In this document: positions 31,901-64,000 of the stretch, in pieces | How positions within the stretch are numbered: position 1 is the stretch's first letter | Layout: each line of letters opens with the position of its first letter | Assembly (NCBI GenBank): GCA_033439255.1 | Contig: CM065886.1 | Coordinates: 496,001-560,000 of the forward strand | Length of the DNA: 64,000 nt | Direction of reading: 5' to 3' | Origin: Hericium rajendrae | Taxonomy: Eukaryota; Basidiomycota; Agaricomycetes; Russulales; Hericiaceae | Notes under the pieces: generated by a model | The model's input: the letters and a program-made list of their open reading frames with translations, nothing else | What the model was told of the DNA's origin: nothing | Database searches by the model: none | Made by a program: the position numbers and the translations under genes

Positions 31901-34900
31901 AAGCCTTACATTAAAAGTCCAACGGTCAAGGATCAAGTGATAGGAGACATCAGTGCCGCTTAGAAAGATCTACGATATTTTTGACAAGAAATCATATCTA
32001 TGTACTGTCTACGTACTGGATAATACGGTTGCAACAGAAGGACTACACGGGCAAAGCCTGCTAGTTTTGCTTTCCAGCTCGCTTTTACTCCATTTCTCTC
32101 CATGGCCTGTCCTCATTCGCCTCGGCCTCCTCGACATCAGCGTTGGCGGCAACGCTCTGGAGGGTCGCGTTTTGCACTCTCTGGGCGAGATCGTTCATGT
32201 CGGCTTCGCCGCGTGCGCGAATTTCAGCATCGTAGCCGCCGTCCTCGCGCACAGGTTCGTTAGGGTCCCAAGTGATAGCCGCGCCCTTCCATCCATGATT
32301 GCTGTGGACATAATTTAAGAATGACCGCCATAAGGGATCTAATGACAGGACTGTCGGGTCGCCCACGATGATGAGGAGCGCTTGCGCTCGTGTCACTGCG
32401 ACTTGGGTTGCATCTGCAGTCAGCAAAGACAGCTGAGATAGATACGCATCATCATTCACCGTTAAATCGGCGCGGGTTTGCGACAAACCCTAGAGTATGC
32501 TTCAAGTCATATTCTACGTAGTCTTGGCTGCTTCGGACCGTCGACATGATGATGACCTTCCTCTCCTAGATCGACGGCCACGTAAACAAACCGAAGCAAA
32601 GAACGTTTGCCAAAGTAGATATTCACCTGTCCTTGGAATTCTTCGACGCTTCCGATCTTTATCTCGTCCGCCATGCCTCTCAACGCTGCGCGAATCTTCT
32701 TACATTGTGCGTGGTACGGCGCAACGATGCCAATATCAGCATCAGCTAGCACGACAAAGTCAGCTTCTATACTTCAATTTTGCAAACATCAGCGCACTTG
32801 TTCTGTCAGCCTTCAATTGTTGGACATATGCCTTGACCTGTAAGACCTCTTCGACGTTGAAAAAGGAGGGCGAAGACGCTTCTCGTGCGTCCTTTCCGGC
32901 CATTCCATGGAACACGATCGGGAATCTTTTCGACACGAGCAGGGGACTGCCGATGTACGAATTGATCGTTCGCGGGTTGCCGCATGGCTCCAGCTCGCCG
33001 TCGTAGAAATGCTCGTTCGGATAGCGGAGGATAGCATTGTGCGAGCGGTAGTTCTTGATGAGCTTCACCATGCTGTGAAGCAGTCGTAAGCAATCTGCCG
33101 GAACCAAAGCCCGCCAAAGTATGTATAGAGCTTACGTTGTCCCATCGCCATTTTCGCGCTTGTATGGGTCGCGGTCGAGGAGCCGTTCCATGTAGCTGAT
33201 GTCCAGCTCAAGCCGCCTTGCGACCGCGGACCGGATAATGGGACCTAACTGTTTTGGATCACCCGATAGAATGACATTAGTCTTAAGGTCAGCCATGGTC
33301 TTGATAGGTATCATGGCCTCTGGCTCTGTGGCCTGGCCGGCTTCGTCGATGAAGACATGGGTGAAATGTCCGCGAGGCACCCCAATGCCGAAGGCAAAGC
33401 ACGCCGAGACGCATGTCGAAACGATAACCCTAAACTTGCGCACGATGATGATTGGTGGATGCGAGAACGGCTCGGTAAGGAGTTGGACATCCTCTGAGTA
33501 CTCATTGTCCCCAACTGGCGAGTCATCCCGGACGTGAGTGAACGGAAGCAGTTCGGTTGGAACTTTGATCTTGGCACGACTTGGTGCGTAGAATCGGAAC
33601 AGTTGCTCTGGACCGAGATCCATGAGCTTGGACGCGATAAGGTCCGCAGCCGAATTACTCGGTGCGCACGCCAAGATACGAGCCTCTGGGTCCTTTTTCA
33701 AAATCTGCCAGATTGCTTCAACAATTGTTACAGTCTTTCCTGTACCAGGGCTATGGAGACGCAGGTTCAACGACATGAGAACAACTGCAGGCATGGCAAT
33801 CAAAACTTACGGCCCAAAAAGAATAAAGGGCGGAGAACCAGGAGAGAGTGAGACAATTGCTTTGATGGCCCGCATCTGCGGCGGATTACTGGCAATGAGG
33901 CTGTTTTTCACAGTCATTGGCGTCGCAAGGGGTTCCAACGCCTTAATATGACTTTGAGCGGGAAACAGAATGCGGTCGGACATGAACGCGCTATCTAACG
34001 CTTGATGCTGCCTGCGAACAGGAATTCGATTTAACCTGAATCGAACGTGGTACTGGCCGCCTTCTCGCCCTGCCGGGAATGATCCGTGAAAGCGTAGGCC
34101 AACTTCCTTTTGTTTGACAAAGTGGACGTGGCCCTCGAACCACTTTCCGACTTCTTCGCCGTGTCGTTGTACAAGCATGCGATCACCTAAAGAAGGTCCA
34201 GTGAGCCCTACAACTAGAGGCTATTGGCATTTTCAGTTACCTGTCAGGACGCTTGGTCTCTTTTCTGCGAGTCCAGGTATCTCAAGGCTAAGCAAAGGCA
34301 GTGTCTTAAGCTTCTAAGCGAGTAGAATAAACAATATGCTAGGTTTACCAATAGAAAACTCCGCGCTTTGTAAGCTTCGCATTGGGGATATCGTACGTTC
34401 CGAGGTCGAATCTGCGAAAGGAGACAGGCATGTGAGTCCGCGGAATTTCAGACGCCAACAGTACTCACTCCATACGATATTCTTCGACCCAAAGCAAGAC
34501 TTTGAAATGCGGACTATAGGTCTTCGCCGTCAATGCTCTTGGCAACGCCGTCCTTTGCAGCTGTCCAACTATCTCTGCGATGGATCCGGCGGAGACGATA
34601 GACATGATGTCCTTAGGAATGACAGATTTCGGAAGCTTCACAACCCACTTCACCGCATTCAGAGACGGGGGTCTGATGCCCTCGACGATCTTCTTCGCCT
34701 CCGATCTGGCACTGCGGATGCGTGGGACATACGGAGCCTTCGGCTTCAACATATCGTAGTCGGCCTTGCTGCCTACAATGGCTTTGACAGAGCGAACGAT
34801 GACAAATCGTTGCTCGAGCTGCGGATCCTTGAAAGTCATCTCAAGACGATCCTCGTATCGACCGACTTGTGTTTGTCGCAGGGTAATGGAGATATGTGTA

Positions 34901-36127
34901 GGCGATCCGTACTCCAAACGGACAGGCAAAGTAGGTGTCTTGACGGCGAAGCTGGCGATTTATAGTGGGCATTGCAGTGGGTCAGGATAAAACTAGTGCC
35001 ACTCACTATGCGGGAGATGCCCGGGCAGACGAGACAGAAGAGGACCACTTGACATCAACCAGGGAGATGCGAGATATCGGGACCGTCGACTGTAGCATCA
35101 CCTCACGCACAACTCCCGTAGTAGTATCAGCGAGTTCAACGACTGAGAAGTCAACACCCTCCTCCCGATTCGACACGGTGATTCCGTGTTTGTCCTGCGT
35201 AGCCTCATCATGAACTGCTTTGTATGCAAGAAATCGTCCGGCCCTGCGGTGTCTAGGTCCAGCAAGGTGTTCCGACCAATGCTCCTCGGGAATGTTCACA
35301 TTGCAGATATTACAAAGCCGAGCACCATCCAGGTCAGGAGGCGCCGAGGATTCATCAGGTCGCTCGATATTAGGGAATAGACCCCTGTTAGACGCCGCCT
35401 TGCGATGACGTCTGGAAATGACATGGCCAGACCAGTTGTAACCCGCAATAGAGATTTCGCATATGGGACAAAGAAAATGATTATATTTGCCAGAGACCGT
35501 TGCGAGGTGCCGACGGCCTTGGAGATGGCTTCGATATTCTGCTTCCGTTGACAGGACCAAGCCACAAGGCTCGCATGTAAGAGCGTTGTGGTTGAACCGA
35601 CAGTTTTGATTTTGGCATAGACCCGTCGAAAGAAATGCGGGACAAGTCTGCACCATGGTGATGGCTGAGTGCAAAGGGTGGGAGGAGGGGGTCGCTGCCA
35701 GCACTCGATCCTTATACAAACCCAGGCGCGTGGAGAACCGAGGGCGTTTCTCCTGGGAAAAGAAGGTCCATAGATTGCTGCGGCTTCTGCGAGGTCCCCG
35801 TTATGACATATGCTGAAAGACGCACGATCGAGATGGAGTATTGCTCACCAAATCCATTCCGCAGCAATGATCGTGATCCACCGTCGCCTTACGAGCAAAC
35901 GAAGACACTGCGCGCACAGTGAGCAAACCCTGTCAGTAAGCAGCAATTCTCTCGCTGAAGACAAAAATTGGACATGTGGATAGAAAATGAACCAATGAAA
36001 CGTGTTTAACGTACTGCACATACACGAGGTAGGGCCAGGCAACCTCCTTGATGTGCTCCGCGGTACGCTGTAAGAAGTGTGCGTACGCGTGGTCGCGTCA
36101 AGATAATGGTCTTACGGATTTGGACAT
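31898..36127. repeat. Tandem duplication, copy B (~4.2 kb unit)
   Basis: Second copy of the unit with helicase gene B. Homology to copy A begins near 31898 and ends near 36127, just short of the RPT6 stop codon at 36332. Confidence 0.9.
32085..35656 (-). CDS. MOV10/SDE3-like SF1 RNA helicase with CCCH and C2H2 fingers, copy B
   Basis: Ten exons, complement of 32085..32401, 32460..32565, 32627..32745, 32798..33072, 33136..33750, 33811..34186, 34241..34287, 34349..34411, 34469..34951, 35007..35656, encode 1016 aa. Exons 3, 4, 5, 8 and 9 have the same lengths as in copy A (63, 47, 376, 119, 106 nt) and all intron phases agree. The finger set is the same (CCCH from [11 protein letters not shown], then TCEPCG, LCPICE, LCNICN), as are the helicase motifs (GPPGTGKT at 539-546, [28 protein letters not shown]). 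Exon 6 carries 48 extra bases, giving an acidic 16-residue insert ahead of SHPP. The start at 35656 aligns with the copy A start; an in-frame codon at 35719 would add 21 residues. No disabling change is seen, so both copies look functional. Confidence 0.93.
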
Positions 36128-44789: not shown

Positions 44790-45190
44790 TAGAAGATTAT
44801 GGAATAGAACCATCAGACAGGACTTCGGACTTGTATTGAATAAGACTTCGGACTATTCCACAGGACTTCGGACTACTCTATAGGACTTCGGACTACTCCA
44901 TAGGACTTCGGACTACTCCATAGGACTTCGGACTACTCCATAGAACTTCGGACTACTTAATAAAACTTCGGACTCTGAACTAGACTAAGGACTCTGGACT
45001 CTGGACTTCAGATTGAGAACTTTGGATTAAGGATTATAAAATAGGACTATAGACAACAGACTTTGGACTAGGACTTAAAACTCCGGAACATGACTCCGGA
45101 CTCTAGACTACTACAGATCAAAGACTTCGGACTCCAGACTCCGGACTTTGGACCTCGGACCTCGGACTATAGCCTTCGAACTTCAGACTG
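44790..45190. repeat. 20-bp GGACTTCGGACTACTCCATA array
   Basis: The core at about 44820-44965 has near-perfect 20-bp units (GGACTTCGGACTACTCCATA). It then decays into GGACTNNGGACT motifs through about 45190, and scattered GGACTATAAAATAG words continue to about 45360. Confidence 0.9.
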
Positions 45191-45619
45191 AACCATAAAA
45201 TAGGCATCAGGACTAATCTAATGATAAAATCAAATTAAGGACTACAAAATAAAAACAAAGGACTATAAAATAGAACTAAGGACTACAAAGACAGATTTAG
45301 AATCAGAAAATTAGCCTAAGGACTATAAGATCTATGATCAGACTATGGACTATAAGATAGAACTAAGAACTATAAATATATATTCTAAAATTATTCAACA
45401 GACTAATTTGTATATAAAAAAGGCTACTTGAGTTTTGAATTAAATTATTATAGGACGAAGAAAAAGAGCAGGACAAAACAATAGTAGCTAGTAACAATCA
45501 AACTTTCAAGTTGACGCGTCTTTAGTTGTACAGCCACAAGACCCATATCTAGATTCTCGGTATTTGAGTCATAACAAAGAGTATGTTCAGTCACTTAGTG
45601 CATTGAGGGAACGCCAGGC

Positions 45620-46345
45620 GAGCTTGACAAAGTGCCATTGTTGATTGGCCATCCTGCGCTGGCCTGTCTGTCACAATGTAGCAGTCATCCAATGACAGGC
45701 CTGCCCTTCCTATGTACCAATGAGTCATTGTCTGGCCTCTAGTCATTTAATCTGTAGTGTCCATTCATCATTGACCGGCCTGTCCTCTGATGTCCATTGG
45801 ATCATTGGCTGGCCCACTTGATCCCGTGGGATATCAGTTGCTCGGCCCGTCCTCTACCATCCATTGGGTCATTGGCTGGCCCATCTCCTTATAATGTCTA
45901 CTGGTCATTCATCATTGACGGGCCCGTCCTCTGATGTCCATTGGATCATTGGCTGGCCCTCTTGATCCCACGGGATATCAGTTGCTCGGCCCGTCCTCTA
46001 CCATCCATTGGGTCATTGGCTGGTCCATCCCCTTATAATGTCTACTGGTCATTCATCATTGACAGGCCCATCCTCTGATGTCCAATGGGTCATTGGCTGG
46101 CCCTTTCGATCCCGCGGGATATCAGTTGCTCGGCCCGTCCTCTACCATCCATTGGATCGTTGACAGGCCCATCCTCTTACAATTTCTACTGGTCATTGGG
46201 TCATTGGCTGGCCCATCCTCTTACAATACCACTGCATATTCATCATTGATGGGCCCATTCTCCACTGTCTAATGGGTCATTGGCTGGTCCACTTGATCCT
46301 ACAGGTTGTCAATTGCTCAGCCCATCCTCTACTGTCCAATGGGAT
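45620..46345. repeat. 144-bp higher-order repeat array (ATTGGCTGGCCC)
   Basis: Short units such as CATTGGGTCATTGGCTGGCCC recur throughout. A longer period is visible: CATTCATCATTGAC starts at 45762, 45906 and 46050, exactly 144 bp apart, each followed by CCTCTGATGTCCA. This is a small higher-order satellite. Frames such as 46078-46272 merely read through it. Confidence 0.9.
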
Positions 46346-47620
46346 GTTATTGGATCTCATGGAATCCTGCCAGACTCTATCTTAGACGTTTTCAGATCCC
46401 ATGTGATCCCATGGGATTCTGTTTTAGACATTTTCAGACCCTATGAGATCCTGTGGGATTCTATCTTAGACATTTTTGAATCTCATGAGATTCCACAGGA
46501 TTCTGTTTTAGACATTTTTGGATCCCATGGAATCTTGCAGGATTCTGTTTTAGACATTTTTGAGAATCCCACGGGATTCTCTTTTGGACATTTTTGGATC
46601 CCATGGGATTTTGTTTTAGACATTTTCAGGGATCCCGTGGGATTCTGTCTTAGACATTTTCTGACTGCATGAAATCCCGCGGGATTCGGTTTTAGACATT
46701 TTTAGAGATCCCGCGAGATTCTGTTTTGGATGTTTTTGGATCCCATGGGATTTTGTTTTAGACATTTTTAGGGATCCTGCGGGATTCTGTCTTAGACATT
46801 TTCTGACTACATAAAATCCCACGGGATTCAGTTTTAGACATTTTTGGAGATCCCGTGGGATTCAGTTTTGGACATTTTTGGATCCTATGGGATCCCATGG
46901 GATTTTGTTTTAGACATTTTTAGGGATCCCACAGAAATTTGTCTTAGACATTTTCTGACTGCATGAAATCCCGCGGGATTCGATTTTAGACATTTTCGGA
47001 GATCCCGCAGGATTCTGTCTTAGTAGACATTTTCTAACCACATGAAATCCCACGGGATTTTGTTTTAGACATTTTTAGGGATCCCGCAGGATTCTGTCTT
47101 AGACATTTTCTGACTGCATAAAATCCCGTGGGATTCAGTTTTAGACATTTTCGGAGATCCTGCAGGATTCTATCTTAGTAGACATTTTCTAACCACATGA
47201 AATCCCACGGAATTCTGTCTTAGACATTTTCAGGTATCTCGTAGGATTTTATCTTAGACATTTTTCGACCACATGAAATTCTGCGGAATTCTGTTTTAGA
47301 TGTTTTCAGATCCCATAGGATCTTGCGAGATTCTGTTTTAGACATTTTTAGATCCCATGAGATTCTGTCTTAGATATTTTCAGATCACATGAAATCTCAC
47401 AGACTCTGTCTTAGACATTTTTGGATCCCATAAAATTTTGTCTTAGATGCTTTTAAATTTCATAGGATCAAATTATATGAGATGTTGTTTTAGACAATTT
47501 CAGATCCTATCATGGGATATTACAGGATTCTGTTTTGGATAATCTTGTGAAATCTCATCTTAGACACTTTTGGATCTTATGGAATTCTGTAGAATTCTGT
47601 TCTATAGACTTTTGCTTCTC
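46345..47620. repeat. ~1.2 kb satellite-like array, TTAGACATTTT core
   Basis: Dozens of diverged units are built from GGGATTCTGTTTTAGACATTTT and short palindromes such as ATCCCATGGGAT and ATCCCGCGGGAT. Alternating GACTGCATGAAATCCC units give a longer period in the middle part. Divergence increases to the right, after about 47,340. Apparent ORFs here are repeats of DSVLDIF-like peptides and are not genes. Confidence 0.92.
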
Positions 47621-48486: not shown

Positions 48487-48862
48487 GTTGTCACGGATCG
48501 CTCCATTTCTCTCTGCCTTCTTCTCTGCCATCAAGGCATCGCGTCGGTCATGTGCTCCAGCAGCCCCATCACATGTTCACTTCCTCACATGACCTGGGGC
48601 TATCCTTCACCCATGCCCTTGTTCCCCTTTGGGACATCCTATTGTTCTCCCTCCCATTGTTCTCCTTTTGGCCACCATTGTTCTCACTCTATTGTTCGAC
48701 CGTTATGGTGTCCATTGTTCTTTTCCCATTGTCGTCCCAGTACTTATAGGCTCCCTGTCGCTCGCCTATTTCCCTAGATTGTCCATTTTGTCTGTACCGT
48801 ACTGTACCTCCAATACAGGTCACTGCGCTGCTAGTCGCTCTCTGCTCTCTCGCTCCCATCAT
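48487..48862 (+). repeat. Putative 5' LTR of the Gypsy element
   Basis: Starts TGTCACGG, a common LTR terminus in fungal Gypsy elements. It contains a TATA-like ATAGGCTC preceded by CTT at about 48745-48755, and could end near CATCATCG at 48855-48865. No second LTR is in the window for comparison, so the 3' limit is a guess. Confidence 0.4.
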
Positions 48863-49097
48863 CGCTGGTGACTTGGGTGGTTCTCTGCTGTCTACGACCG
48901 AGTCTTGACACCTGGACAATCTCTCATACACCCGCCTCACCTCCCTACTATCGCCCATCATACCTTTCTTCTTTGAACCCTTCACCGCCAACATCTTCAC
49001 CGAATCCTGACATCCATTCCATCAACCTCATCTCCCCTTTCCCATCGCCAACACCATCGAGGGTAGTGCACTCATCCCCCTCCTCCGCTATTGTGCT

Positions 49098-50640
49098 GTG
49101 AAGCGTTGGGAAGCCGAAGGAGTTTGGTTTCGATTGAGGTCGTGGAAACCATGTGCAGGTGCTATCTCCATTGCCTTATACGTTCGAATTCGAGTTTCCT
49201 TTGACGTCGACTTGCAAGAATTCACGTTCGGTGCCTCGGATATCGCTTACCACTGTCGCCAACCCAACCGAGGATCCCCTGCAAGTATCCTACCATCGAC
49301 CTCGTTCCCCTTTTGCACACTAGGTCTCTTCACCCCCGAACCCTCACCTGAGCCTGTGTGGGCCAGAGAACGCCTCGGCCACCGATTCCTCAGAAACCCG
49401 TACTCGGACCCCCTGTACCCTCGTGCTCTTGGTCGTCGCCCAGTTGCGGCTGACTTCTTCTAGACCTCACCATTGATCCCACCGACCCCCGTTTCCAGAC
49501 CACAGAACCATACCCACTCGGCGTCTTCGCCTCGCTCGACGAATACTTCATCTACACCCTTTCTGGCATCGTTCGAATAGACTTCGTCACTCCGGACGAG
49601 GACGACGACGGTCCCGCACAGTGGTACTTCGCCGATCGTGACGACCAGGCAGACCTCGAGCTTAACGACTTCGACGTCGCAGCTACAGAACACCGTCGCC
49701 AACACCCCGCTACCCCGCCGCTTCCCACCGTTGCCCTTCCTAGTGCAGATTCTCCCCCTGCTCGCACCACCCCACTTGTTGTTCCTCCAGGTATTACCTT
49801 CAACCCGGTAACCAACAACTACTACGCATACCGCTCCGACACCAATCGGCTTGTAGTCAGTTGGAGACCCAGCCTCGTAGAAGAAAGTGACCTGTGGTTT
49901 TGGCAGGCCAGTACCCTCTTCTTAACCACTGCAGAACTCGCACTCTCTCAAGCAGTTATAGAGAATCTCGCTCAGCAACAAGCTACCCGCCTCGATACCC
50001 TTCGGGCCCCACCACCACCACCTGTTTCGACGCCTACCCCAGTACCAGTCCCCTCACCTGCTCCACCCGTTGCCGCTGTTGCATCGACATCCACCGTCAA
50101 CGTCAAACCAACCATTGCCACAGCCCCCCCTGTTCAGCCATCCATCGACATGTCCAACCCTGAGATCGGCGTCAAACCTGCTCCCTTTGAGGGAGATCGT
50201 TCCAAGTCCAAGGAATTCCAGCTGCGTATTCGCTTATTCCTTCGCGCCAACTCCACCCGGTATAAAGATGATACCGCCCAGATCTCCCTCTTCCTCGACC
50301 TCTGCCAGGGCCCTATCGCCGGCCAGTGGGCCACCCAGCGCGTCGAGGAGATCCTTGAGGATGACGATCTCGTGGCTGCAAAAACATCTCCAGCTCATGT
50401 TCCCCGCTACGCCAACCTCACCGCCCTTCGAACTCGCTTCAACTTGGACTTCTCTCCCCTTGACGACTCCAAGGATGCCTCCCATGCTATCCAGACCCTC
50501 CAGATGGGTACGCGCCCGGTAGTCGACTACATCACCGAGTTTGAGTCCTTCGCCCCTCGCACCGGCTACAATGACGTGGCCCTGATCGACTGGTTCCTGC
50601 ATGGCCTCAACACATCTGGAAAAGACGTTGATTCTACAGG
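49098..50640 (+). pseudogene. Gypsy gag, frameshifted and 3'-truncated
   Basis: Frame 49098-49463 (ending VAADFF) and the continuous frame 49454 to about 50640 (starting LLLDLTIDP) appear to be two parts of one Gag joined by a frameshift near 49455. The second part has no ATG before 50150. It includes a Pro/Thr-rich linker and then a Retrotrans_gag capsid domain: FEGDRSKSKEFQLRIRLFL, GPIAGQWAT, LQMGTRPVVDYITEFESFA and DWFLHGLN. The reading stops making sense after GLNTS, where the neighbouring element begins. No zinc knuckle is reached. This is a dead copy. Confidence 0.82.
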
Positions 50641-51049
50641 GATCTATAGTAGCAATATTAATCTACAGTAGCTAAAAAAGGTCCCATAGATCATGTAGCT
50701 CTTGGTGACAAGTGGGTCTCTATATTTGCTACCTGTAGCAGATCTGTAGCAGTCTGTAGCAGTCTGTAGCAGCATATATATGTCAGAATTTACTGTAGCT
50801 ACTCAAAGCTATTGTAGCTATTCAATATTACTGTTGGCTACTATAATATCTTATAGCTACTTTGATCTATTGTAGATGCATAGGCTCTTATAGTATCTAC
50901 ATATAGGGTATAAAAGAAACTCTTTCAGTTTCAGAGATGATAGTCAGTCTGATAGTCTTCATTAGACTCTAATAGCACTCAATGTCATATAATAGCCAAG
51001 AAAGGATCAATAGCACTTGAATTATGCATAGCGTCTAAATATTAATCTA
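50630..51049. repeat. GTAGC-rich segment, possible element terminus
   Basis: Dense short repeats of CTGTAGCAG and TAGCTA/TGTAGCTAC occur in both orientations (three tandem TCTGTAGCAG near 50730-50775, others to about 50890). The array begins exactly where gag is broken. Clusters of short subterminal repeats are typical of CACTA-group and related DNA transposon ends, so I read this as the left edge of an inserted element. I could not match it convincingly to an inverted copy at the right side; only the 8-mer ACAGTAGC is shared with the reverse complement of about 63,780-63,800. Confidence 0.5.
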
Positions 51050-53385
51050 CTACCGGCTGCTGCCACTGCATCCAGCTGACGCAGTGGCGTTACGCTCTGC
51101 CACAGCTCTAGCCTCTATGGCTGCAAAATCTAAACCACCAGCGCTTCCATCGTAGACTCTGTTCTCGGTCGGACGTCCAATAGAGGTTCTAAAAAATAAA
51201 ACAAATATTTGTGTGAGCGACGAAAGAGGAAACAAAAATCACATCCTACAAAACATCATTGCGAAGCTTGGTAACTAGATTTTTCCAAAAAACTGGCATC
51301 TTCTCCTTGAAGTCTGTCAACATATCCTTGTAATAATTGTACCTATTCATCGTTACTTCTTTAGAATCTAGAAAACCTTAGACTATAATCATTTACCGAG
51401 AAAAGAATAGAGTGTCGCTGAACTCGATCTCCTTTCTGTAGCCGTCTTGAAACTCCACAATGCAATTTTCAATCTATAATATTTGCATTGGATGAGCGAT
51501 GCATTGCTAAGAAAAAAAGATTAAGATCATCACCGCTGAATATACCACAGCCAACAAAGAGATATTGAATTCTTGATAGTGTGCGGTGTATGCTCCTTTC
51601 AAGCCTTCACCTTTTTTACCGAACCATTGTTTTGCTATAATATTGACAAGGATAGGCGTGTTAAGAGCCTGAGACTCATCATATGTTCTGGCCTGTAGGC
51701 AGGTTAGTAACTATCTTGGTAGAATAGTAAAAGTGAAAAGCGTAAAGCGTACCTCTATATTTATGGCCCCAAAAGTGAAGACAGGAGCGCTACGCGATGC
51801 CGACACCAGCCACTTCACAGTACTCTTAACAGTATCAGTGTCGGATGTGGCCTGTAGCTTCTCTAGACCAAAAAAGTTCTTGCACGCGTCTTGAGCCTGC
51901 GTCTTGATCTGTCCGCGTACTTGAGAAACTCCAGCCCAAATCTATATTACATCGCTTCAGAAACTGAGTTCTAATAGAATCTATGAAGTACTCACAAAGC
52001 CTGTGATCTTTTCAAACTCCAGATGAAGTTCTTCATCGTGCTGAGACATGGCTTTGCTCAGCTTCTCGTACTCAGGCAGTAGAGAAGGACGTGTTGACAC
52101 AATGTATTTCATAGCTTCAAAAATGACCTTCTCCCTAGATTGGGAGGATAAAGGAAAAGCGTCCACAGTGCAGACCATGACGCGTAAGTATTGCCGTCCT
52201 AGAGAGCTGAGCATAGATGCCTCTTCGCCGAAGTTCCTTTTGATTTCGCCCAGATTCCAAGGCCCCTGCTTGAGAGGCGCACCAGATGCCAGAAGAGAAC
52301 TGGAGAAGCAGACATTTTCATCAGAACTCTAGGAACGTCCGATGGAAGATGCTTACCGAACCTTGGGTAGTTTGTCTGACTCGTCATCGACAGCAACAAG
52401 CTTTGATAACGAATGAGTCATAAACAATGTGGGTATACTAGTTATGGACATACCTTTGCGCTGCAGAAGGGGCCCTTACGTCCAGCACGTCCGGTGATGT
52501 TGCGCTTCTTTCCAACACCAGCGCTGACCTTCTCACTCTTAGATACCTTCTTTCTCTTCCTACCATCGTCTTCCTCAACCACTTCCACTTCAGACTCATT
52601 CTTGTCACTGACATCCTCCTCCACGTCAGACTCTTCTTGCGCGGCTACAACTATAGTGAGTTTGCCTGTTCTCAAATGATAGCAAAACATACTCTTATTG
52701 TCGGAGTCCTCCTCCTCCTCATCGCTCAGACCTTGTGCGATCTCCATCTCCTCATCATCTAGGCCACCATGGCCATCAGTGCTGAGGCCGTCTATTACAC
52801 CAACGTTGTCATCTCCATCGTCCTCCTCATCCTTGTTGGAATCATTATCGCGGTCGTCATTGGCTTCGGCATGGACGAGATTCAAGGTTCGCGCTGCCAG
52901 CTCTGGTAATGTAGATGTGAGAATGACGTTAAAAAAAATTATTAGAGCGACGCCAGTACCGACTGGCAATGGTGAACCAGCACTTACCTCGTTCCTCTTC
53001 TGCCAACTCCGCCTGAGTCTTTTTCTTCTTAATGGCCCTAGGCTTGGGCTTGGGCTTAGTTGGAGGGATAGGCTGGTCCTCATCTTCGTCTGAAACCTCG
53101 TCGTGTTCTCTTTTTTTTGCAGTTTTCTTGGCCGCTACAGCAGCTGCCTTAACAGCAGCCGCTGCAGCGGCAGCAGTTTTCTTTGTCGTCGTCGTGTCCT
53201 TGTATTATTCAAAATGTAAGCCTTTATTATCTCAACTGGCAGGCGTATGTACTCACCTTCTTGGGTAGCGTCTGCCCTGTCTGCACCTTGCTAGTATTGG
53301 CTCTTGTGTTCTTGGACGGTGGGCCCTTGGCAGGCTGAGTACTGGTACTCTTTGTCTGAGTCTGAGATCTGGTTTGGCCAGCCAT
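51050..53385 (-). CDS. DUF6532-type fungal protein, 583 aa
   Basis: Eleven exons, complement of 51050..51188, 51250..51342, 51397..51473, 51534..51692, 51753..51941, 51996..52299, 52357..52400, 52454..52650, 52693..52902, 52988..53198, 53257..53385, all in phase. Residues 1-260 are low-complexity nuclear-type sequence: Thr/Ser/Lys, an Ala run, KPKPKPKPR-like basic stretches and long Glu/Asp tracts. Residues about 265-540 match my recollection of DUF6532 from basidiomycetes: LRVMVCTVDAFPL, REKVIFEAMKYIV, a RGQIKTQA helix, TPILVNIIAKQWFG, IENCIVEFQDGY and YNYYKDML. Its biochemical role is unknown. Such genes are abundant in mushroom genomes, often near transposons. No disabling mutation is apparent. 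Confidence 0.75.
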
Positions 53386-53637
53386 GAAGGACGACGGGAA
53401 GGGTGGATGTAGATGAGAGAGTGAGAGAAGAAGGATGGACTACGTGGCTCAGGCCAAGCCTTCGAGCCGTCGCGCCACGTCGCATATCTACACCCGGTTT
53501 CCATCCTCCTCTAAGCGAGGGTGGGAATTATTTTGCTGTCCCCAACCAGTTCACACACTCTTGAAATTCAGACGTTGCACTCGAAACTCTGTAGGATTAA
53601 GAATAGCTGAATAAACTACGCCAAGCAAAGTAAAATG

Positions 53638-56549
53638 TCAGTGAAGAGTTTTGTTATCCTCCCATCCGTTCCGACTACGCATCCACTCTGCCATGGCAGC
53701 ATCTGTGTGAAAAACAAAGGATGCGCGCTCTCCGGAATAATGAAGATTAAGATGAGTAGTATCCTTCGAATTGAAGACAATGATGTCACCATTCTTCGCC
53801 TCAATCACCAGCCCCTGCTCGTACAACACAAGAGCACCACCCGTGAATTGACCGATGGGGATAACGAGACAATGAGAATTGTCCTTGTCATCTCGGTGAC
53901 CCTTTGTCGCAACGTTGATGTTGATGACGAAGCCTACAAAAGGGCGCACAATAGATTGAGAGTTGCCAGGGAGTTCCGATGAATAGTACGAAAGTTCCAT
54001 GTACTCCCATGGCAAACAGTCCAGAAGCTACGACATATATTTTAGTGGACAATTATTCTGAGCATGCGCAAACAAAAACTTACCTTAGCTTCAACCCATC
54101 CGAAAAGCTCCTGGAAAATTACCTCCATCTTCTCTAAGGTTGCAGCGTGCTTCTTCATGTCTGCGGACGTATATGGTATAAACTGTGAATAATTAGTCCT
54201 TGACGTGCCGTCCCGAGACAGATAGAGTGGTTGGACACTGGTGGGAGCGTTTGTGCCCTGAAATTAAAGTTAAAAAAGAAAATGCAGCAAAACAAATTTT
54301 ATACCTTGGTTGCATGTCGGTTGTACCAAGAAAAATGATAGGTGCCAAATTTCAAGGCTTCTCCATCCACACTGGAGTCTCGAGCGTGCATCATCTCTCC
54401 AACACAAGCCTTGAGCCCTGAATGCAAGTTGTCACGGATGTAAGACGGCAGAGACGTGCAGATCCAGGCCATAAGGCTTCTGTCGCTGTTCTCTAATCGA
54501 ACATTATCCCTAAAGATGAGTTCAAAAATATATAAATATAGTAGCAGAGAAATCAAATGTGTTCGTACGGAATGATGTCGGTAGAAAAACCAAGATAGGA
54601 CGTCAAATCCCGTCGAACACCGCTCTGATAGTGTGATTCCAACTGTAAAACAAATCAGATCATCTAGCCAACAAAAAAAAAGACAAAATCTACCTGGAAA
54701 GAAAGCTCTTCAAGAGATGTGGCAGCATGTGCCAGGCCCTCAGAAGCAAGCTCACGCTGTGTCTCTGTCCAAGTATAATTCTTGTCGTGGTCGACTACGG
54801 CAGAGGTTGCCAGATTGACCGGGTGGTCCTGCTCATACGTCGTATGGATGATGACGGCTGGTCCAGAGGGATCCATGTCCATTGGAACATCTACATCCAC
54901 AGATACGTCGGGTAAGGGCGAGAGCAAAGAAGCAGGCGTAGAAGGATTTGAAGGCTCCGGCGTGGGTAAAAACAAAGCTGACGGAGCATCTGAGAGTCCT
55001 CGCACGAGGCCAGTGTGACGAAGTACAACCTCCCTCAATGTTAGAGGAACAGTGGTTGATGATGGGGGGTTGAGCAGGCAGGGCGCCCATGCTTCTGGGT
55101 CCCTTGACAGAGGCTGAAAATTGCTAAGAATATACTTAGCACAGAATAATAAGTACCGGGGAACACATACTTGAACGGAATTATTTCAAAGAACCTGTCC
55201 GTAGTGTAGATTAAAACCGTCAAGAGAAGGAGGAATGCTCCAGGGCTGCAAGTCCTCAGGCGAAAATAGGCCTGTTAGATTCAAGGGAAGAATTTGGCTA
55301 AGATACGAAACGGCCGGAATGATTTTTGAGCGGATAATGACGCCGACATCCTGTGTACCAGGAGGTGGACGGCGAAGAAGATTGGCCATGGTGCTGGGGC
55401 TCAACTCGTCGATATGGTGCAATTTGTCGCGTAGGGTAAGCCCGGCGATGAGTACGAGAACGTACACAGATCCTGCAATTACATCAGTACAGGGCAAAGA
55501 CGTTGCCTATGGTCTCACCTCCAGACGCAATAGCAGCGTATTTACTGCCTTTGCTATGCCAGTCAAGGAATGTGTTGTACGTTACCGCAGGGAGATCGCG
55601 ATCTCCCTCCACGAAACGTTTCCAGAACGGATACTTGTGATGAATCCTGTGTTGCTTCAGGAGGCTAAACGCGGCACAATTATCATATATCCTACAAACG
55701 TAGAGCCAACACTTACTTCTCCACTCGAACAACGAGCGTCATAAAACTGATCATGGCGGCGAAAGTCACCCCGACTTGCCGACTGGTGATTGTCCAGCAG
55801 TGGTGTAGAGCTGTCTGAAACTCTGTAGCACCATCTCCGCTCCGACCTCCACGAGCAGGCCCCATTCCTCTATCCAACTCCAACCGCACGTCCTCCGCCC
55901 ACTGCTTCAGCCTGCCAAAATCAAGGACGTCGGCCGCGTCCTCCGAAGATCCTGCCCCTCTCTCTGGCTGCGTACGGCGCCGCCGACGCGATCCAATTCC
56001 GGTCGTACCCCACGCCCCAAGCATGGCAATAAACCCTCTAGCGTCCCTGGTTACGACAAAAGCCGGGTCGTTGTTAAGGACCCAGATGGGAATCCCTCCC
56101 CGCCGGCAGCCGTCATGCCAATAGTGCTGGACGTTGGGATCCCCGTTGCCTCCGCCTCCGCCTCCGCCCTCACCCTCTCCGCCGCATCCGCCCATCCGTA
56201 ACGCCAACTCATCGGCGTCGATCTCTGGCTCCCCGTCGGAGTCCGGCTCGCTACCGTCAAAAACTCGGAAGGGAGAAAGGTGGCCTGAAAGGGTTGGAGA
56301 CGTGGGCGGAGGGGTGCAAGGGGGAGGTGTGAGCGGCGTCGGAGAACCAAAGGGCAAGTCCTGTGGCGTGCTGGAGGGTGTTTGCGGCGAGGTGGTGCTA
56401 GTAGACAGATGGCCAGTGCTCTGAGCCAAAGACGTCAGCCGGCGTAAGAGCCGCGACGTACAGTTGGCAGCCTCTGCAGACTCCAAGCGCTGCAGGTTCT
56501 CTAGCGCCTGAAGCACGTCCCGCAGCACGTCGTCAGGGACTTCAGGCAT
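53638..56549 (-). CDS. TET/JBP-family 2-oxoglutarate/Fe(II) dioxygenase, 833 aa
   Basis: Eight exons, complement of 53638..54027, 54084..54257, 54305..54509, 54569..54642, 54694..55113, 55195..55472, 55519..55646, 55717..56549. The C-terminal 130 residues form the double-stranded beta-helix of fungal TET/JBP enzymes. H748 and D750 (GHRDDKD) and H796 (DTTHLN) are the iron ligands, R805 (GERASFVF) the 2-oxoglutarate-binding arginine, with GGALVLYEQGLV, NGDIIVFNS and an RNGW motif. Family members oxidise 5-methylcytosine or thymine in DNA; that activity is inferred. Upstream are FSWYNRHAT, typical of fungal TET genes, WTETQRELASEGL (about 525-537) and an N-terminal Pro/Ser/Thr-rich half with an IHHKYPFWKRF segment. 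The ATG at 56549 is the first in frame. The frame stays open without ATG to about 56916, across a possible 40-nt intron (56714..56753), so the true start may be further upstream. Confidence 0.88.
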
Positions 56550-56840
56550 TCCGGACGGGGTGACGGTGCGCCGCGTTCGTGGCGACTTGGTCGTGTGCGG
56601 TGCTAGCGGTCGGCGCTTGGCGTGTATGCTGGCGGCGAAGGTGGGCGGAATGGGGTGAGATGTCAGGCAGCCACCGGTACGCGTAGGAAGTTCGCGTCTG
56701 AGGGCTGCCTGGTCTGTGAGAGAGAATAGCAGAGAGTGGATGGCAAAACTCACGATTTGCAGGGAGGGTGCCAGCTAGTAAGGAGGAGCCTTGCGCGTTA
56801 ACATGCAGCTCGCGACTGGCCCGTCGCGGCGTGGGGGTCG

Positions 56841-56872
56841 TGGGAAACGTTTGGGTGTACCCAAACGTTTCC
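56841..56872. repeat. Perfect 15-bp-arm palindrome downstream of Ulp1 gene
   Basis: GGGAAACGTTTGGGT, a 2-nt centre, then its exact reverse complement. It lies between the stop codon of the Ulp1-like gene (56967) and the 5' end of the TET/JBP gene. Flanks (GGGGGTCGT and GCGCCCCC) partly continue the symmetry. Confidence 0.95.
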
Positions 56873-56966
56873 CGCGCCCCCTTTTCCAAAAATTTCTTAC
56901 AGTACAGCTGGACCACCGGGGGACGAAAGTGAATGATATTACGCCCAATAAACGGGCAATACTACG

Positions 56967-58779
56967 CTAAAGCATTTCGGTAGCGGAATCGTCGCCGTCA
57001 GAAACGCCAACCTCTCCGCTGCCCTCCAGCAGGCCCCTTTCCCCAGCCTCCTGCCCTTGAACGTGCCGACCTTCCTCCCGATCCCTCATGAGCTCCTCCA
57101 TGAGCAAAAGTCGTACGCCGTCCAATGAACGGGGGCCTCCAAACGTGAACGCATATTCGGGAGGGACCGTACGCGCATGCAGATCGCCGTGAAGGTGATG
57201 GAGGATAAAAAGCAGCGTGAACACACCGCAGTCTACCCCGTTGGACTGCGTGGGGCACTAGAGTAAAGAAGTAAATCAGCATCCACGTTATAGAAATTTG
57301 AAACAAAACACACCTGCGCATGCGGGCAAAGTTCCCAGGTCGGCCAGTAGTTTGATATGCGAATGCTATGGTATTTAGAGAGCCCCCTGAATAACCTGCT
57401 CACAAAGAATTTCAGTTTGGCTACGATGTGCCAATGGGTCTGCTCCTCAAGCGGCAAGTCTTTGTTTGCCTCGTAGATTCTGGGTAAGCTGTCGTAGACC
57501 TTGATATGTAGACGTTCGAAGTCGACGACCGCCGTTACCCAATGAGTTTCATCTCGCAAGTGAACCGGGATCAGAATTTGTTTCCAGGGAATGATTCCCT
57601 TGGCCGAGACGACCTGAAAGCAACATCAAATTATCAAGATACAAGGAAACAAAATATTGGAATACCAAACGTACCCTAAGACCAAGATGTTTGAGAATGA
57701 GGGATGGGTTCGGGGGTGGCACAGTGGGCAGACGGAGTGGCATGAACTCCGTACGCAACACCAAGCTGTCAGGGAAAAGGCCGCACCACTTGCAGGCGAA
57801 GTAATTGATGATGGCTTGATTGAGCATTGTGCGAGGTCGGAGTCGTTCCACGTCCAGCCGCTTGCAATCCTCAGTTTCGACCCTGCCATCCAGAAGGGCG
57901 CGGACCTCAACAACGAAATTGCCGACCAATTGCTCCTGTAACGTCTTCATGAATAGAATACATTAGCAGCGAGAAAGAGAAGAGGGAAACCACGAAATAT
58001 CACGCACCTGGTCGAGCACGTCCCTGACGTTCTTGCCTCCGATATCTCTCCAACTGATTACCTCTGACCGGATGCATAATCCCCACATCTTCACGGCCAC
58101 GATGACATCTCGCAAGCGACCTGCAATTGCGAGAAGGCCATCCTGTGGCTCTCCGTGTGGTACAAGCCTCATTATGATGGACTCAAAGTCCCGTGAAAGC
58201 TCTAGGCCATGCCTAACGCTGTCCTCATAGCTGGACTGGAGCGCGCGGACCAACGCATAACCATCTGTCGAGTCCTTTAGTACCGCAGTGACCTGGACCT
58301 GGATGTCACGCTGCTGTGAGAGTGCACCGTTATCAATATCGTTACTGGTCCACAACCACATGATATCGGATGCATCGAGCCAATCCCGTATACGGTCGAG
58401 GAAATTGACCACTTGTGACAAGGCCGGTCGGGAGAGCCGAATTGGAAGCTGGGATTTTCCAGAAAGGAGTTGGTGAGAGAGGTTGCTCAAAGACAGTGCG
58501 CGAGGACGAGACATGCGGCGTCGTACATGAGCCCGTGCATCTTGCTGTGTGATTTTTGCTGCCAGGGACTCGGAGGATGAATGGACAAAAATCGATCCGT
58601 TCGCCCACTTCTTGGCACGAGCTTGACTTAGAATATGCAAAGAAGTGAGCCATGTTCATCTTATTAGGGGCATATACCACTCACCTTGCCTTCTTCGCAT
58701 TGTACTTGTCCATCGACGCACGCTCCTCCTCGCTATACGGGACACCGGCGCTCGAGTGGGTTGAGCATGCACGAGCCAT
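56967..58779 (-). CDS. Ulp1-type SUMO protease (peptidase C48), 521 aa
   Basis: Five exons, complement of 56967..57257, 57314..57613, 57675..57935, 58008..58626, 58685..58779, all in phase. The C-terminal half has the C48 catalytic set: H349-W350 (DETHWVTAVVDF), D366 (KVYDSL, 17 residues after the His as in yeast Ulp1), Q429 and C435 (CPTQSNGVDCGVFTL). The N-terminal half is helical with no known domain. The family cleaves SUMO or similar isopeptides; transposon-borne relatives are common in fungi and plants. Catalytic residues are intact. Upstream of the chosen ATG, a frame reading VQHIDLGSTDMARA could extend the protein through an intron (GTAAGTAC...TTTAG, about 58801-58848), but I could not complete it to a start. 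The gene is enclosed by two strong palindromes. Confidence 0.87.
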
Positions 58780-58938
58780 GTCGGTGCTCCCGAGGCTAAA
58801 TCAATGTCAGTGATCAATCACTGAATGGAATAGTGTGTACTTACTCAATGTGTTGTACTCGTGGTTGCAGCCTCTAAGTACGAACCTCGTTAGCGTTCCA
58901 ACTGTTGGATGTTGAACTTACGGCTTAGTGCGGGCCGT

Positions 58939-58992
58939 GAGCTCCGTTTCATTTGAGCTACCAAATTTGGTAGCTCAAACGAAACGGAGCTC
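58939..58992. repeat. 26-bp-arm near-perfect palindrome upstream of Ulp1 gene
   Basis: The left arm starts GAGCTCCGTTTCATTTGAGC and the right arm ends GAAACGGAGCTC. The 26-bp arms differ at one position and are separated by 2 bp. Symmetry continues weakly outward (GCGGGCC on the left, GGGCCCGC on the right) to about 58930-59003. Confidence 0.95.
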
Positions 58993-60613
58993 GCGGGCCC
59001 GCGGACAACCGGGATAAGCCTGTCGAAGTTGGACTCGGCGTGCCCTCTCTGACATCTACCCCATTCCTTCTGTCCTGCAACAACCTGGATATTGCACGTA
59101 TCATATCCTCATGTCAGTGCCCATAAAACCCTACTGACCTGGCAGCAGTAAGTATAGATTTGATCTGGTCGCTGGTCGGTGAGTATCTTCACTTTGTTGC
59201 TCATTTTGCTTACCTTCGTGTGTCATAGGCTCTCCTCTACTTCTTCTTGCTTTTGCACCTCAATTTCACGCATTCCACCATATTCGCGAACACGTTTGCG
59301 ATGTTTGCGAAGCTCGAAGTCGAGTGTAAGAACAAGTGGAGTGAGCACGAGAAGCTGCCAAGGTGCGTCTGCCGTTCACTCTCTTCCAACTTTCTGCTCA
59401 CTCCCAGTCCTTCAACGCCTCGCCGTCACACCCTTCATCCACTCCAGCACAATTTATTGCTGCTGCTGGGAATGGAGCTTCTGCACATCGCTATGAATAG
59501 CGATGAGAACGCAGCAAGAGCAAGGCACGGCGTGAAGCTGCAGCAATGCTGCATGAGCACGATGCGAGCAGCGCGCGCTCGGTGGAGGTGAAACACGCAA
59601 CGTTGTGTGCTCGCATGGCGTGAAGGGCACTAATGAAGTTTGTTCCAGTCTTCCTCCCCGGTCTCCCTCCTGCTGTGCATGCCGTGCAGAGGGCAATCAC
59701 CTACAAGCTCCAGACACTCCATCGCCGTCCCACCTCATTATCCCTCCACACCCCCAGAGCATATCGCTAATTCCGGCGGGGCTCGCAGTTTCTCCTGAGA
59801 TGTGCGCATATACGTCTTTTTGCATGGTATCATAAGCTGACATCTGATGAATGCCAGCTGCCTCAAGGGCGTTTGGTACATCTATGTACTCTGCGCACAA
59901 GCCCTCTCAATGTCATGATATATCCAGCTCTGCGCAAGCCCTCTCAATGTCATGATATATCCAGCTGACCCATTCATATCTTCAGTGTGCGCGTTGCAGC
60001 ACATACGGATGCCATCCACCTCTTCAAGCATGGCAGCGCATCTTTTCCAGGACCTCAGATGGCCACCAAACGAACCTCTGAATGTCCTGATAGCGTCAAG
60101 TGATGTACGTATCCATCTTTTCATGTACAGCAAACCTCTGAATGTCATGATAGCATCGACCGACGTATCCGTCTCTTCACCGACGTATCCGTCTCTTCAA
60201 GTACAACACACCTCTAAATGTCATGATAACGTCAACGGACATATCCGTCTCTTCAAGGACGATGTAGGGCGACGGTGATAGTGACGCCATCTTTTCCGAA
60301 GGGCAAACCAAATGAGAGGAGTTCTGGAGGATTTGGGGATGGTACGGCGACTTTCAGATGGTGGACATATGGTCTCGCACATGTAGGTTATTACATGGAA
60401 TGTCATTTGTCTTGATTTAAGGTCTTTTTCGTGTTGGCTGGCCCTTTTGCTTGAGCGTGGGAATGACTTGGTTGCACCAGAACAAGTCCCACGACCGGGC
60501 CCCCCTCCCTAATACTCAATAAACTACCCGTCTGGGCTGTCCTTACATTCCAATTTTTGCGGGTAAGTGTAATTGCGAACAGACCCCAGTATAAACTCAC
60601 GTATGGTCAGAAA
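58993..60613. other. Non-coding spacer before the transposase gene
   Basis: Aside from the repeats at 59891-60265, I see no supportable gene. A frame at 59247-59591 has a protein-like start (NTFAMFAKLEVECKNKW) but no clear continuation. The last ~100 bp should contain the transposase promoter. Confidence 0.45.
59891..60265. repeat. Cluster of diverged short tandem repeats
   Basis: A 38-bp unit, AGCCCTCTCAATGTCATGAT plus ATATCCAGCT, is duplicated at 59891-59966. It is followed by three diverged longer units starting CCTCTGAATGTC (60075, 60134) and CCTCTAAATGTC (60210), each with GTATCC and CTCTTCA words. All share the core CTCTNAATGTCATGAT. Confidence 0.8.
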
Positions 60614-63600
60614 ATGGGTAAACGACAACGTATCTCCCTGGGTGGTTCCTACGTTCCCGGACAAGCCCCTGTCGATCCCACAGTCTGCGCCAATTGTGGT
60701 GGGCAGTTCAAGAGTGTTCGGGGCGTAATGTCACATCAGAAAACTTCAGGATCTTGCAAGGACTATCATATGGGCAAGAGGAAAGAGGTATGGCAAGCTG
60801 CGGAGGGTCAATGGGATGGCGTCAGAGCTGCTGCCCTATGGCCTGATCAGGTGGAAGAAACTGAGGAGGAGGATATATCAGAGGACCCTGCAGATGTCCT
60901 GGCTTCATTTCACGAAGAGTTCTATAGGTTTTTGCCTTTGGACGGCTCCGATCGACCTCCCTGCGATGAGGAGAAGCGCGATCTTGATCCCTCTCAGATG
61001 GCTTCCACTTCCCGTTGCCAACTCCCTGCGGTTGTGAATTCGCTATCGCTAGATGACAACGAAGACTCTCGTGTGGAGGATGTCCACAAAACAGCAGCCC
61101 GTGAATACGGAGAAGACCGAACGGCGGACGAGCGTTGGAAGCTCTTCTTCGACAAGATGGGCCAAGCAAGTAGCCCTGTAACCGGATCTTCGGCTTGGAC
61201 TCCCTTTGCCTCTGAGATGGACTGGCTTGTGGCGAAGTGGGTGGTTCAAGAAGGAGTGGGGCATAACAGTTTCGATAAATTCTTATCGATACCGGGGGTG
61301 CGTATGCAAGAACCTGCTGCTTGAATCTTGAATAACCTGTTGGCTGGGACATTACAGATGGTCCATCGACTGGGCATCAGTTACGACAGCTCTAGCGCTC
61401 TTCTGAAGATCGTTGACTCTATTCCAGCAAGGGCTGAATGGCTTACCAAGTATCTTATATTCCCTGACCGCCCCGACGAAGAACATTTTGTTCAATATCG
61501 AAATCCTTTGGACGCAATCCGCACACTATTAGGCAATCCAGCTCACAAGGAGCATATTGTTTATCGTCCTTCAAAAGTGTTCACCGACAGCAAAAGGAAA
61601 ACACGAATATATCATGAGATGTGGACTGGAAAGTGGTGGAATGCGGTGCAGGTAAGTATCTTCGTTCTAGTTCTGATCTTGGTAAAATATACTTACCAGT
61701 ACATCAAGCAACGTGTTTCAGAGGGGCATTGCATTGCTCCTGTGATCATTGCCACGGATAAAACACAGCTCACCCAGTTTACGGGGAACAAAACATCGTA
61801 CCCTGTGTATCTCACGCTGGGAAATATTCCTCGTTCTCTCAGAAGGCGACCAACGCAGAATGCCTGCATTCTTATTGGTTATCTGTCGGTGGCAAAGATT
61901 AAGAAGAAGGGGCTCACCAAGGCTGAGCGTAAGGCGCGAGCTCAGAGCGTATTCCACGACTCTATGCGCATGATTCTACAGCCTTTGAAGACAGCTGGCA
62001 AGAAGGGTATATCTGTCACTTGTGGTGATGGCAAGATTCGCAAGGTCCACCCCATCCTGGCAACCTACGTCGCCGATTATCCTGAGCAATGTCTTGTCAC
62101 ATGTACGAAGTACGGCACCTGTCCCAAGTGTAGGCCCAAGTCCATGGATGATCGAAAGCCTGGCACCAAGCGAACGCACAAGGAAACTCTAGATATCATT
62201 GCAGACATCGTGCAAAGACCACATCGCGCTCAGCATTCGCAGAGCAATGTCTTGCTAAGGACCTTGCCGGAATCGAGGAACCATTTTGGGTGGGCTTTCC
62301 CTACACAGACATTTACAAGTCCATTACACCAGACGTGCTGCATCAGCTGTATCAGGGTGTCTTGAAGCACATCCTGTCATGGTGCGGAAAGATGCTTACA
62401 TCTGTAGAACTGGATGAGCGAATTCGGCGCCTTCCTCCAGCCTTCGGTGTCCGACATTTCAAGAATGGCTTCTCAGCTCTAGCGCAAATATCGGGGACAG
62501 AACGCAAGAATATGGCGAAGATCCTTTTGGCCTGCTTGGTTGGACGGGTGCCTAATGCCGCGCTCATTGCTATTCGTTCCATTCTAGATTTCATCTACAT
62601 TGCTCAGTATCCAACCCAGGACGAAATCACCTTAGGTTATCTGGAGAAGGCTCTGGATGACTTTTATCAGCATCGCAACGTCTTTAAGCAGCTAAGGATA
62701 CGGAAGGACTTCGACATTCCCAAGTTCCACTCTCTCATTCATTACGTGGAATCAATACGGCTGTTTGGAACCACAGATAACTATAATACAGAAATGTTTG
62801 AACGATTTCACATCGACTTTGCCAAAAAAGCCTGGCGAGCTTCCAATCACCGTGACGAACGACCCCAAATGACACAATGGCTCAGTCGTCGTGAAAAGGT
62901 TGCCATGTTTGACGAGTTTCTTTTGCGGACAAAGGACAGTCCGTCTGTTGATGACTGGCCACCTCCGAAGTCAAAGCCAACTATTCAAATTGCAAACCGC
63001 CCTCCTCGTCCGAAGGTTGCCATCACAACAATTGAGCAGGAACATAATGCGCCCTTCTTCTCACTTGCTCTCAAGCAGTATATCAATCAATTTTTTCCTT
63101 CTTCTGAAAAGGCCACCCGACGACAAATCCAAGAGGGAAAACTTCCTTTTGACTACGTCTCCGTGTATAATGGATTCAAGTTTTTGCGCACAGAGTTGGG
63201 ACACACGACGTGATGAGAGCTAAGGATGAAGATCGAGAGACTGCGAAGGCTCAGCCTGCTGTTGGAAAACGCCCTGCACGTTTTGACACTATGATCGCCT
63301 GGTACTCTGACAACGCAGAGTCCACTGGCGTAGAAGGTGGGGGTTTCTACTCTACACTCAGTATAATATACTAACTGCACATAATTTATAGGAACACGAG
63401 TTGGACGTATCAAAGTTATATTTAAGCTACCGGAGAAAGTGGGATATTTCAAACCAGCCTGGCCCTCTGATCCCCTAGCATATGTGCAGTGGTACACACC
63501 ATTTCAGCACACAGCGAACGAAAAACATATGATGTATACCGTCTCAGTCCCTAGAGACGGAACTGGACAGATCATACCTCTTACCCGTATACGTCAAACA

Positions 63601-63729
63601 TGTCAACTTATTCCTCATTTTCCAGAGATTGTAGACAAATCTTGGGCATCAGAGATGGTTCTAGATCAGGCTCAGACTTTCTTCGTGAATAACTGGGCCA
63701 GCATGTATGCATATCAGACCATTTGGTAG
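60614..63729 (+). pseudogene. Plavaka-type (CACTA-group) transposase, two frameshifts
   Basis: Exons 60614..61297, 61358..61651, 61700 to about 62220, then about 62221..63206, about 63207..63336 and 63392..63729. It begins with a C2HC finger (C25, C28, H41, C48). The core follows basidiomycete Plavaka transposases: WTGKWWNAVQ, VIIATDKTQLTQFTGNK, YPVYLTLGNIPRSLRRRP, LIGYLSV, VADYPEQCLV, CPKC, ITPDVLHQLYQG, DFDIPKFHSLIHYVESIRLF, DNYNTEMFERFHIDFAKKAW and ASNHRDERPQMTQWL. A C-terminal LAYVQWYTPF domain follows after the last intron. Two places (about 62,205-62,225 and 63,205) need a one-base change to keep the homologous frame, and no intron explains them. The copy is therefore probably inactive, unless these are sequencing errors. 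Its low overall decay points to recent insertion. Confidence 0.87.
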
Positions 63730-64000
63730 TCTTGTTTTGAATATATTGCTTGATTTGTCTTAATTTAATATCACTTCTACTAGTGCTACTGTACCCATAT
63801 TGATGCTCTCCATAATGACGTATCTTCATCAGGTTCTGCAGTACGGCAATCATAGAGTACCGGTCTTCTATTTGTAGCCAAGCCTCGGCTACAGAAGGCA
63901 GACTTCGGCTATCATCCAAAAGGACGGTTTTCCAGATGCAGCGCCCTGCGCGATGATTGCCAGCGCAGCTACCCCACGCCCACCACCCTGGCTGAGTGGA
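63730..64000. other. Right edge, downstream of transposase
   Basis: AT-rich to about 63,790, then non-coding DNA with a pair of inverted TAGCC...GGCTA words near 63,880-63,895 (AGCCAAGCCTCGGCT). The right terminus of the element may be here or beyond the window. Confidence 0.4.

Follow-up and report, generated by a model that had tools for sequence, protein, structure and literature searches.

A TET/JBP dioxygenase gene carried by a Plavaka transposon of Hericium rajendrae, with a pocket that predicts a 5-methylcytosine enzyme

By analyzing a stretch of 64,000 nucleotides from Hericium rajendrae (assembly GCA_033439255.1, contig CM065886.1, positions 496,001 to 560,000; the whole stretch is called the window here), we found a Plavaka DNA transposon that has a TET/JBP dioxygenase gene as cargo. 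The reading that we favor, with a probability of roughly 0.7, is that open-frame copies of this gene at other places in the genome oxidize 5-methylcytosine (5mC) in the element family through a conventional 5mC pocket, keeping the transposase genes expressible. The transposon would then probably carry its own methyl-stripping enzyme to escape silencing. An initial annotation of the window had already located a TET/JBP enzyme in mobile DNA, and the fold, the ligands and the enclosing transposon bear this out. The element, its insertion site and the TET gene are arranged as follows.

50613..63938: Plavaka DNA transposon, 13,326 bp, four genes; a sister on contig C4 has the same ends, and an uninterrupted retroelement copy gives the empty site
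50613..50623 (+): left terminal inverted repeat, CATCTGGAAAA
63928..63938 (-): right terminal inverted repeat, TTTTCCAGATG
50611..50612: left target site duplication, CA (single CA at the empty site)
63939..63940: right target site duplication, CA
48489..50612 (+): left part of the interrupted long terminal repeat (LTR) retroelement, with gag (PF03732) in 49454-50671; it resumes at 63939 and runs past the window
53638..56549 (-): TET/JBP dioxygenase gene; exon borders match the sister and diverged copies, exon 3 frameshifted in the window copy
56549-55717, 55664-55519, 55472-55171, 55123-54694, 54642-54569, 54509-54305, 54257-54084 and 54027-53638 (-): TET exons 1-8
55171..55472 (-): TET exon 3, 2 bases short of its length in five relatives; out of frame, with a stop at codon 422
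53638..54027 (-): TET catalytic exon, with HxD, H and R and the Tet_JBP match

The limits of the element are defined by its insertion. BLAST of the copies against the window and the next 10 kb revealed one LTR retroelement split at 50612/63939, and the empty site is an uninterrupted copy of the same retroelement on contig C2, relative to which CA is doubled around the insertion. The inverted ends are 11 bp long and the target duplication 2 bp. The sister element has identical ends at a different site and an extra 2.7-kb insertion (positions 5466-8206 of the sister stretch) with CATC..GATG-like ends, which is probably a nested Plavaka-type element. The sister copy (C4, 348877-352179) is 99.8% identical to that of the window, an identity indicating that the window copy is young. 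Three diverged elements (C2a, C2b and C4a), 12.4 kb each, have in common an end sequence of at least CATCTGGAAA, and the two element families are 64-69% alike in aligned pieces. All five copies have 2-bp target duplications and the termini CATCT..AGATG, one base off the CATCA..TGATG of PlavakaB.

The left end (50613-50820) recurs at ≥40 places, namely itself and the sister, 24 places at 79-95% and 14 at 68-70%, and is shared by other elements. The right end recurs at 8 places including itself, among the matches listed.

The catalytic exon is intact and encodes the residues that the initial annotation had singled out, the iron ligands HxD...H and the 2-oxoglutarate arginine, which hhalign aligns with residues of CcTET-like proteins. 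The predicted structure of a homologue has a double-stranded beta-helix fold to which TET/JBP structures are the closest. The Pfam check proposed in that annotation returned a Tet_JBP match, but the window catalytic exon, scanned alone, scores 30.4 bits against a cut-off of 34.9; among 14 homologues measured against the same cut-off, 8 score 15.1-30.3 and 6 are unlisted. Taken together, these comparisons and the structure model indicate a real dioxygenase of the TET/JBP fold. The N-terminal half had been described as lacking any domain that could be named. A 205-residue stretch of a homologue (approximately residues 246-460 of the sister protein) is predicted to form a helical domain (predicted local distance difference test score, pLDDT, 82.1), for which the PDB searches run gave no convincing match. 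The closest homologues are from Hericium alpestre (90%) and Dentipellis, the homologue search found further family members in Serpula, Fomitopsis and Trametes, and there is no rust protein among the named homologues. A host gene at a distance of 50 kb likewise finds its top match in Dentipellis (49% identity), with further Russulales genera next and no Hericium protein among the matches listed, which points to Russulales and perhaps Hericiaceae.

Substitutions between element copies point to methylated cytosine in the element family. The window and its sister differ by 17 substitutions, 14 of them at CG dinucleotides (CpG), which hold 10% of the bases (p 8e-12), and in the three diverged elements CpG sites account for 44 of the 56 columns with a substitution. 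The CpG observed/expected ratio is 0.17 in a decayed TET relic on C18 versus 0.90 when the gene is taken from a diverged copy. This predominance of CpG transitions supports the view that they are a trace of CpG methylation, of the kind that 5mC deamination leaves. The host genome has five matches to the methylase family PF00145, one of which was inspected as a protein.

What the enzyme acts on can be predicted from its pocket, which we compared in an alignment of 34 rows, 31 of them ungapped. HxD, an Asp five residues past the first His (H+5) and a Cys at H+9 are present in 31/31 ungapped rows, and the column preceding the Cys is without Asp. According to the published account, the H+5 equivalents are Asn1387 in hTET2, Asp234 in NgTET1 and Asp350 in CMD1, and this residue holds N4 of 5mC and blocks N6-methyladenine (6mA), whereas CcTET has Gly331 at this position, compensated by Asp337 (PMC11040006). 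The Asp at H+5, read against these enzymes, therefore leads us to predict a conventional 5mC enzyme like NgTET1 and CMD1 and unlike the 5mC/6mA enzyme CcTET. Another substrate (6mA, thymine or RNA) or another 5mC product, as in CMD1, is unlikely in our estimate, although the same fold oxidizes 6mA in CcTET and adds a glyceryl group in CMD1 (PMC12730594, section 3.4). The Cys would also fit such a departure: it occupies, in every ungapped row, the second pocket position (Thr1393/Ser238/Thr354/Asp337), which was located by spacing in NgTET1 and CMD1, and it differs from the residues of all four named enzymes (PMC11040006). However, by the published argument the 6mA methyl group would collide with an Asp at H+5 (PMC11040006), and the CpG-specific decay shows that 5mC is available as a substrate.

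The second question is whether the enzyme serves the element. The host genome has 46 Tet_JBP matches, 38 over the cut-off, whose neighbors we assigned by distance to matches of the transposase families KDZ (PF18758) and Plavaka (PF18759), using the main Plavaka coordinates. Among the KDZ and Plavaka matches listed, 36/46 TET matches are ≤6 kb from KDZ, 6/46 are 7.0-7.7 kb from Plavaka with none within 8 kb of KDZ, and 4/46 are near neither class. The six Plavaka-side TETs, counted as Pfam hits and so leaving the decayed C18 relic outside, are those of the window, the sister, C2a, C2b and C4a, plus another copy on C14, which reads HRDGKD. Two other low-scoring Tet_JBP matches (C2, C10) adjoin KDZ. 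The CcTET-like loci have Gly and Asp at both CcTET positions in 8/8 read; six, identical in the pocket stretch, are near KDZ, and two have no KDZ nearby among the matches listed. The KDZ-linked TETs form copy groups with the same or nearly the same scores, a hint of recent mobility.

The TET/JBP family had been linked to the KDZ group, and for the window element this link does not hold: its transposase is Plavaka (PF18759, 287 bits against a cut-off of 26.3), and the TETs that KDZ transposases adjoin in this genome are of another type. When the pieces of the transposase were scanned with Pfam, Plavaka matched and KDZ did not, and the nearest KDZ on the window contig is 1.2 Mb off, among the matches listed.

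That the TET is a passenger or host-serving cargo, its 5mC oxidation mattering to host genes and not to the element, seems to us improbable to about the same degree as another substrate. TET genes are pervasive, since those 36 matches adjoin a different transposon class, and several classes of element show enrichment for oxidized methylcytosine in both L. bicolor and C. cinerea (PMC8889193), both of which would suit a wider role. However, all six Pfam hits of the window kind are 7.0-7.7 kb from a Plavaka transposase, and the gene set is kept across both element families despite their divergence.

The start and the stop of the gene given in the initial annotation are exact, but its eight exons are not in phase. 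We set the exon borders from an alignment of the window with C2a, C2b, C4a and the C18 relic and then transferred them to the sister; splice donors and acceptors coincide between the window and the aligned copies, and the sister with eight exons gives 851 codons with no stop. Exon 3 is 302 bases long in the window versus 304 in five relatives (the sister, the three diverged copies and the C18 relic). The window copy, which had been proposed to be intact and possibly functional, is thus not intact: its active-site exon is, but the gene as a whole appears broken, because of this frameshift and because the putative intron that would rescue it is coding in relatives. The two missing bases may have been lost in the organism itself or may be an artifact of the assembly. 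In C2a and C4a the TET frame is open and the homologous first codon is not ATG; C2b has lost the frame over part of exon 1, and the relic has several stops. The TET frame is therefore open in 3/5 full-length element copies.

Functionality of the gene family, as opposed to the window copy, is supported by these open frames and by the codon comparison of the two element families. The ratio of nonsynonymous to synonymous divergence (dN/dS) between the sister and a diverged copy is 0.086 over 819 codons and 0.056 for residues 561-851, values that are only rough because dS is saturated; the underlying proportions contrast clearly (pN 0.18 versus pS 0.72) and indicate that the TET is under purifying selection. 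That the window copy is functional after all, through an extra intron in exon 3, is very improbable: a 52-nt GT-AG stretch (55306-55255) does restore the frame and reproduces the earlier model of 833 aa with H748, but it codes for conserved residues in the sister and diverged copies, its donor GTATCT and acceptor CCTGAG are weak by eye, and 47 different GT-AG choices (17 + 10 + 20) restore the frame on paper.

We therefore return to a methyl-removing enzyme that serves its own element family. The decay pattern suggests that the host methylates CpG sites of the element; TET made from open-frame copies elsewhere in the genome would, judging from its fold and pocket, oxidize 5mC at these sites, so that methylation would not be maintained and the transposase genes would remain expressible. 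The broken window copy could benefit only in trans. Several points weigh against this account. The TET or the transposase frame is broken in each of the five copies, so that present activity, if any, would act in trans. CpG decay records past methylation, not its removal, and a TET that protects well might leave less of it. All Tet_JBP scores of the window-type TETs scanned are under the Pfam cut-off, and PDB sequence searches with the window TET family, up to E 10, returned no TET; membership in the TET family therefore rests on the sub-threshold Pfam match, hhalign and the predicted structure of the homologue.

The TET gene is accompanied by three further genes and a palindrome.

60614..63371, approximate (+): Plavaka transposase gene (PF18759, E 2.4e-85); frame broken near 62.2 kb in the window copy
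57000..58655, approximate (-): Ulp1-like (Peptidase_C48) gene (PF02902, E 1.6e-05, 25.3 bits, cut-off 20.7)
51053..53385, approximate (-): acidic/DUF6532 (PF20149) protein gene; two successive exons match profile positions 51-101 and 105-158 of PF20149
56842..56873: palindrome upstream of the TET gene, present in diverged elements with its center altered

The two PF20149 exons score 24.9 and 24.5 bits (cut-off 24). By tblastn, all ten window frames of the four genes are found in the diverged element C4a, with the highest conservation in the catalytic exon of TET (84% over 126 aa) and in the core of the transposase (76-82%). A second, diverged family of elements has thus retained the linkage of TET, Ulp1-like and DUF6532 genes. 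In Hericium alpestre, one gene model fuses the Ulp1-like part with TET, and gene models in two Suillus species and in Dentipellis have DUF6532 behind the TET part. The Ulp1-like and DUF6532 proteins may assist the TET, for example through SUMO removal from silencing factors, which is speculation. The palindrome, GGGAAACGTTTGGG, has 81% matches at two further sites on C9 and is possibly a promoter element. Just past the Ulp1-like gene, 58932-58999 consists of two directly adjoining 34-base inverted arms, 91% complementary.

Elsewhere in the window, 27826-31854 and 32047-36124 form a tandem gene duplication with a period of ~4.2 kb, 70-92% alike in pieces; the duplicated gene presumably encodes zinc fingers together with an ATPase region of the helicase type. 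Beside the retroelement, 44820-47620 holds dense minisatellite arrays with spacings of 20, 42, 76, 144 and 155 bases.

Two transposon superfamilies in one genome thus go with two TET types, distinguished by a pocket residue whose structural meaning is known. This makes it testable whether mobile elements choose enzymes for the removal of different marks, and whether a TET coded by a transposon shields its own family or methylated DNA in general.

Transposon-borne TETs have been published as PU, AG and PE types (Kojima 2025, PMC12730594). The PE type (HxE) is encoded by Plavaka among others, and from Russulales only TET+ Kyakuja is reported (PMC12730594). The window family fits neither PE nor AG: HxD in all ungapped rows excludes PE, and AG needs Gly/Ser and Asp at CcTET 331/337, where the window family has Asp and, judged by spacing, Cys. 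In the literature on Plavaka/TET, DUF6532, Ulp1 and Hericium transposons, as far as the parts consulted go, we found no HxD-type TET in a complete Russulales Plavaka element. We tentatively suggest, at slightly less than even odds, a fourth, undescribed transposon-borne TET type (HxDxxD...C), borne by an Agaricomycete Plavaka cassette with Ulp1-like and DUF6532 genes, anti-silencing and 5mC-specific, beside the separate CcTET-like 5mC/6mA system of KDZ.

The nearest known system is the TET+ PlavakaB of Agaricus bisporus and Gymnopus confluens (PMC12730594), which is alike in its Plavaka transposase, 2-bp duplications, CATC..GATG-like ends and TET cargo; the window element differs in HxD instead of HxE, in its ends and in its Russulales host. 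The AG-type TET of Kyakuja and CcTET have HxD, H and R spacing and a fold as in the window family, and AG-like proteins also occur in the window's genome, mostly near KDZ transposases among the matches listed; however, CcTET and the eight loci of its kind have Gly at H+5 and Asp at H+11, and their system belongs to a different transposon superfamily. NgTET1, hTET2 and CMD1 resemble the window family in fold, ligands and Asp/Asn at H+5, and its pocket spacing of 4 is that of NgTET1 (234, 238) and CMD1 (350, 354). Unlike these enzymes, the window family is beyond PDB sequence search, transposon-borne, and has a second-pocket Cys and a helical N-terminal domain without a PDB match. Finally, Iyer et al. 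(2014), known to us through Kojima's summary, implied a Plavaka-TET/JBP association in Serpula, Fomitopsis and Trametes species, from which no TET+ Plavaka family was recovered according to Kojima (PMC12730594). The same genera hold members of the window protein family, and our analysis supplies complete Plavaka elements for this association.
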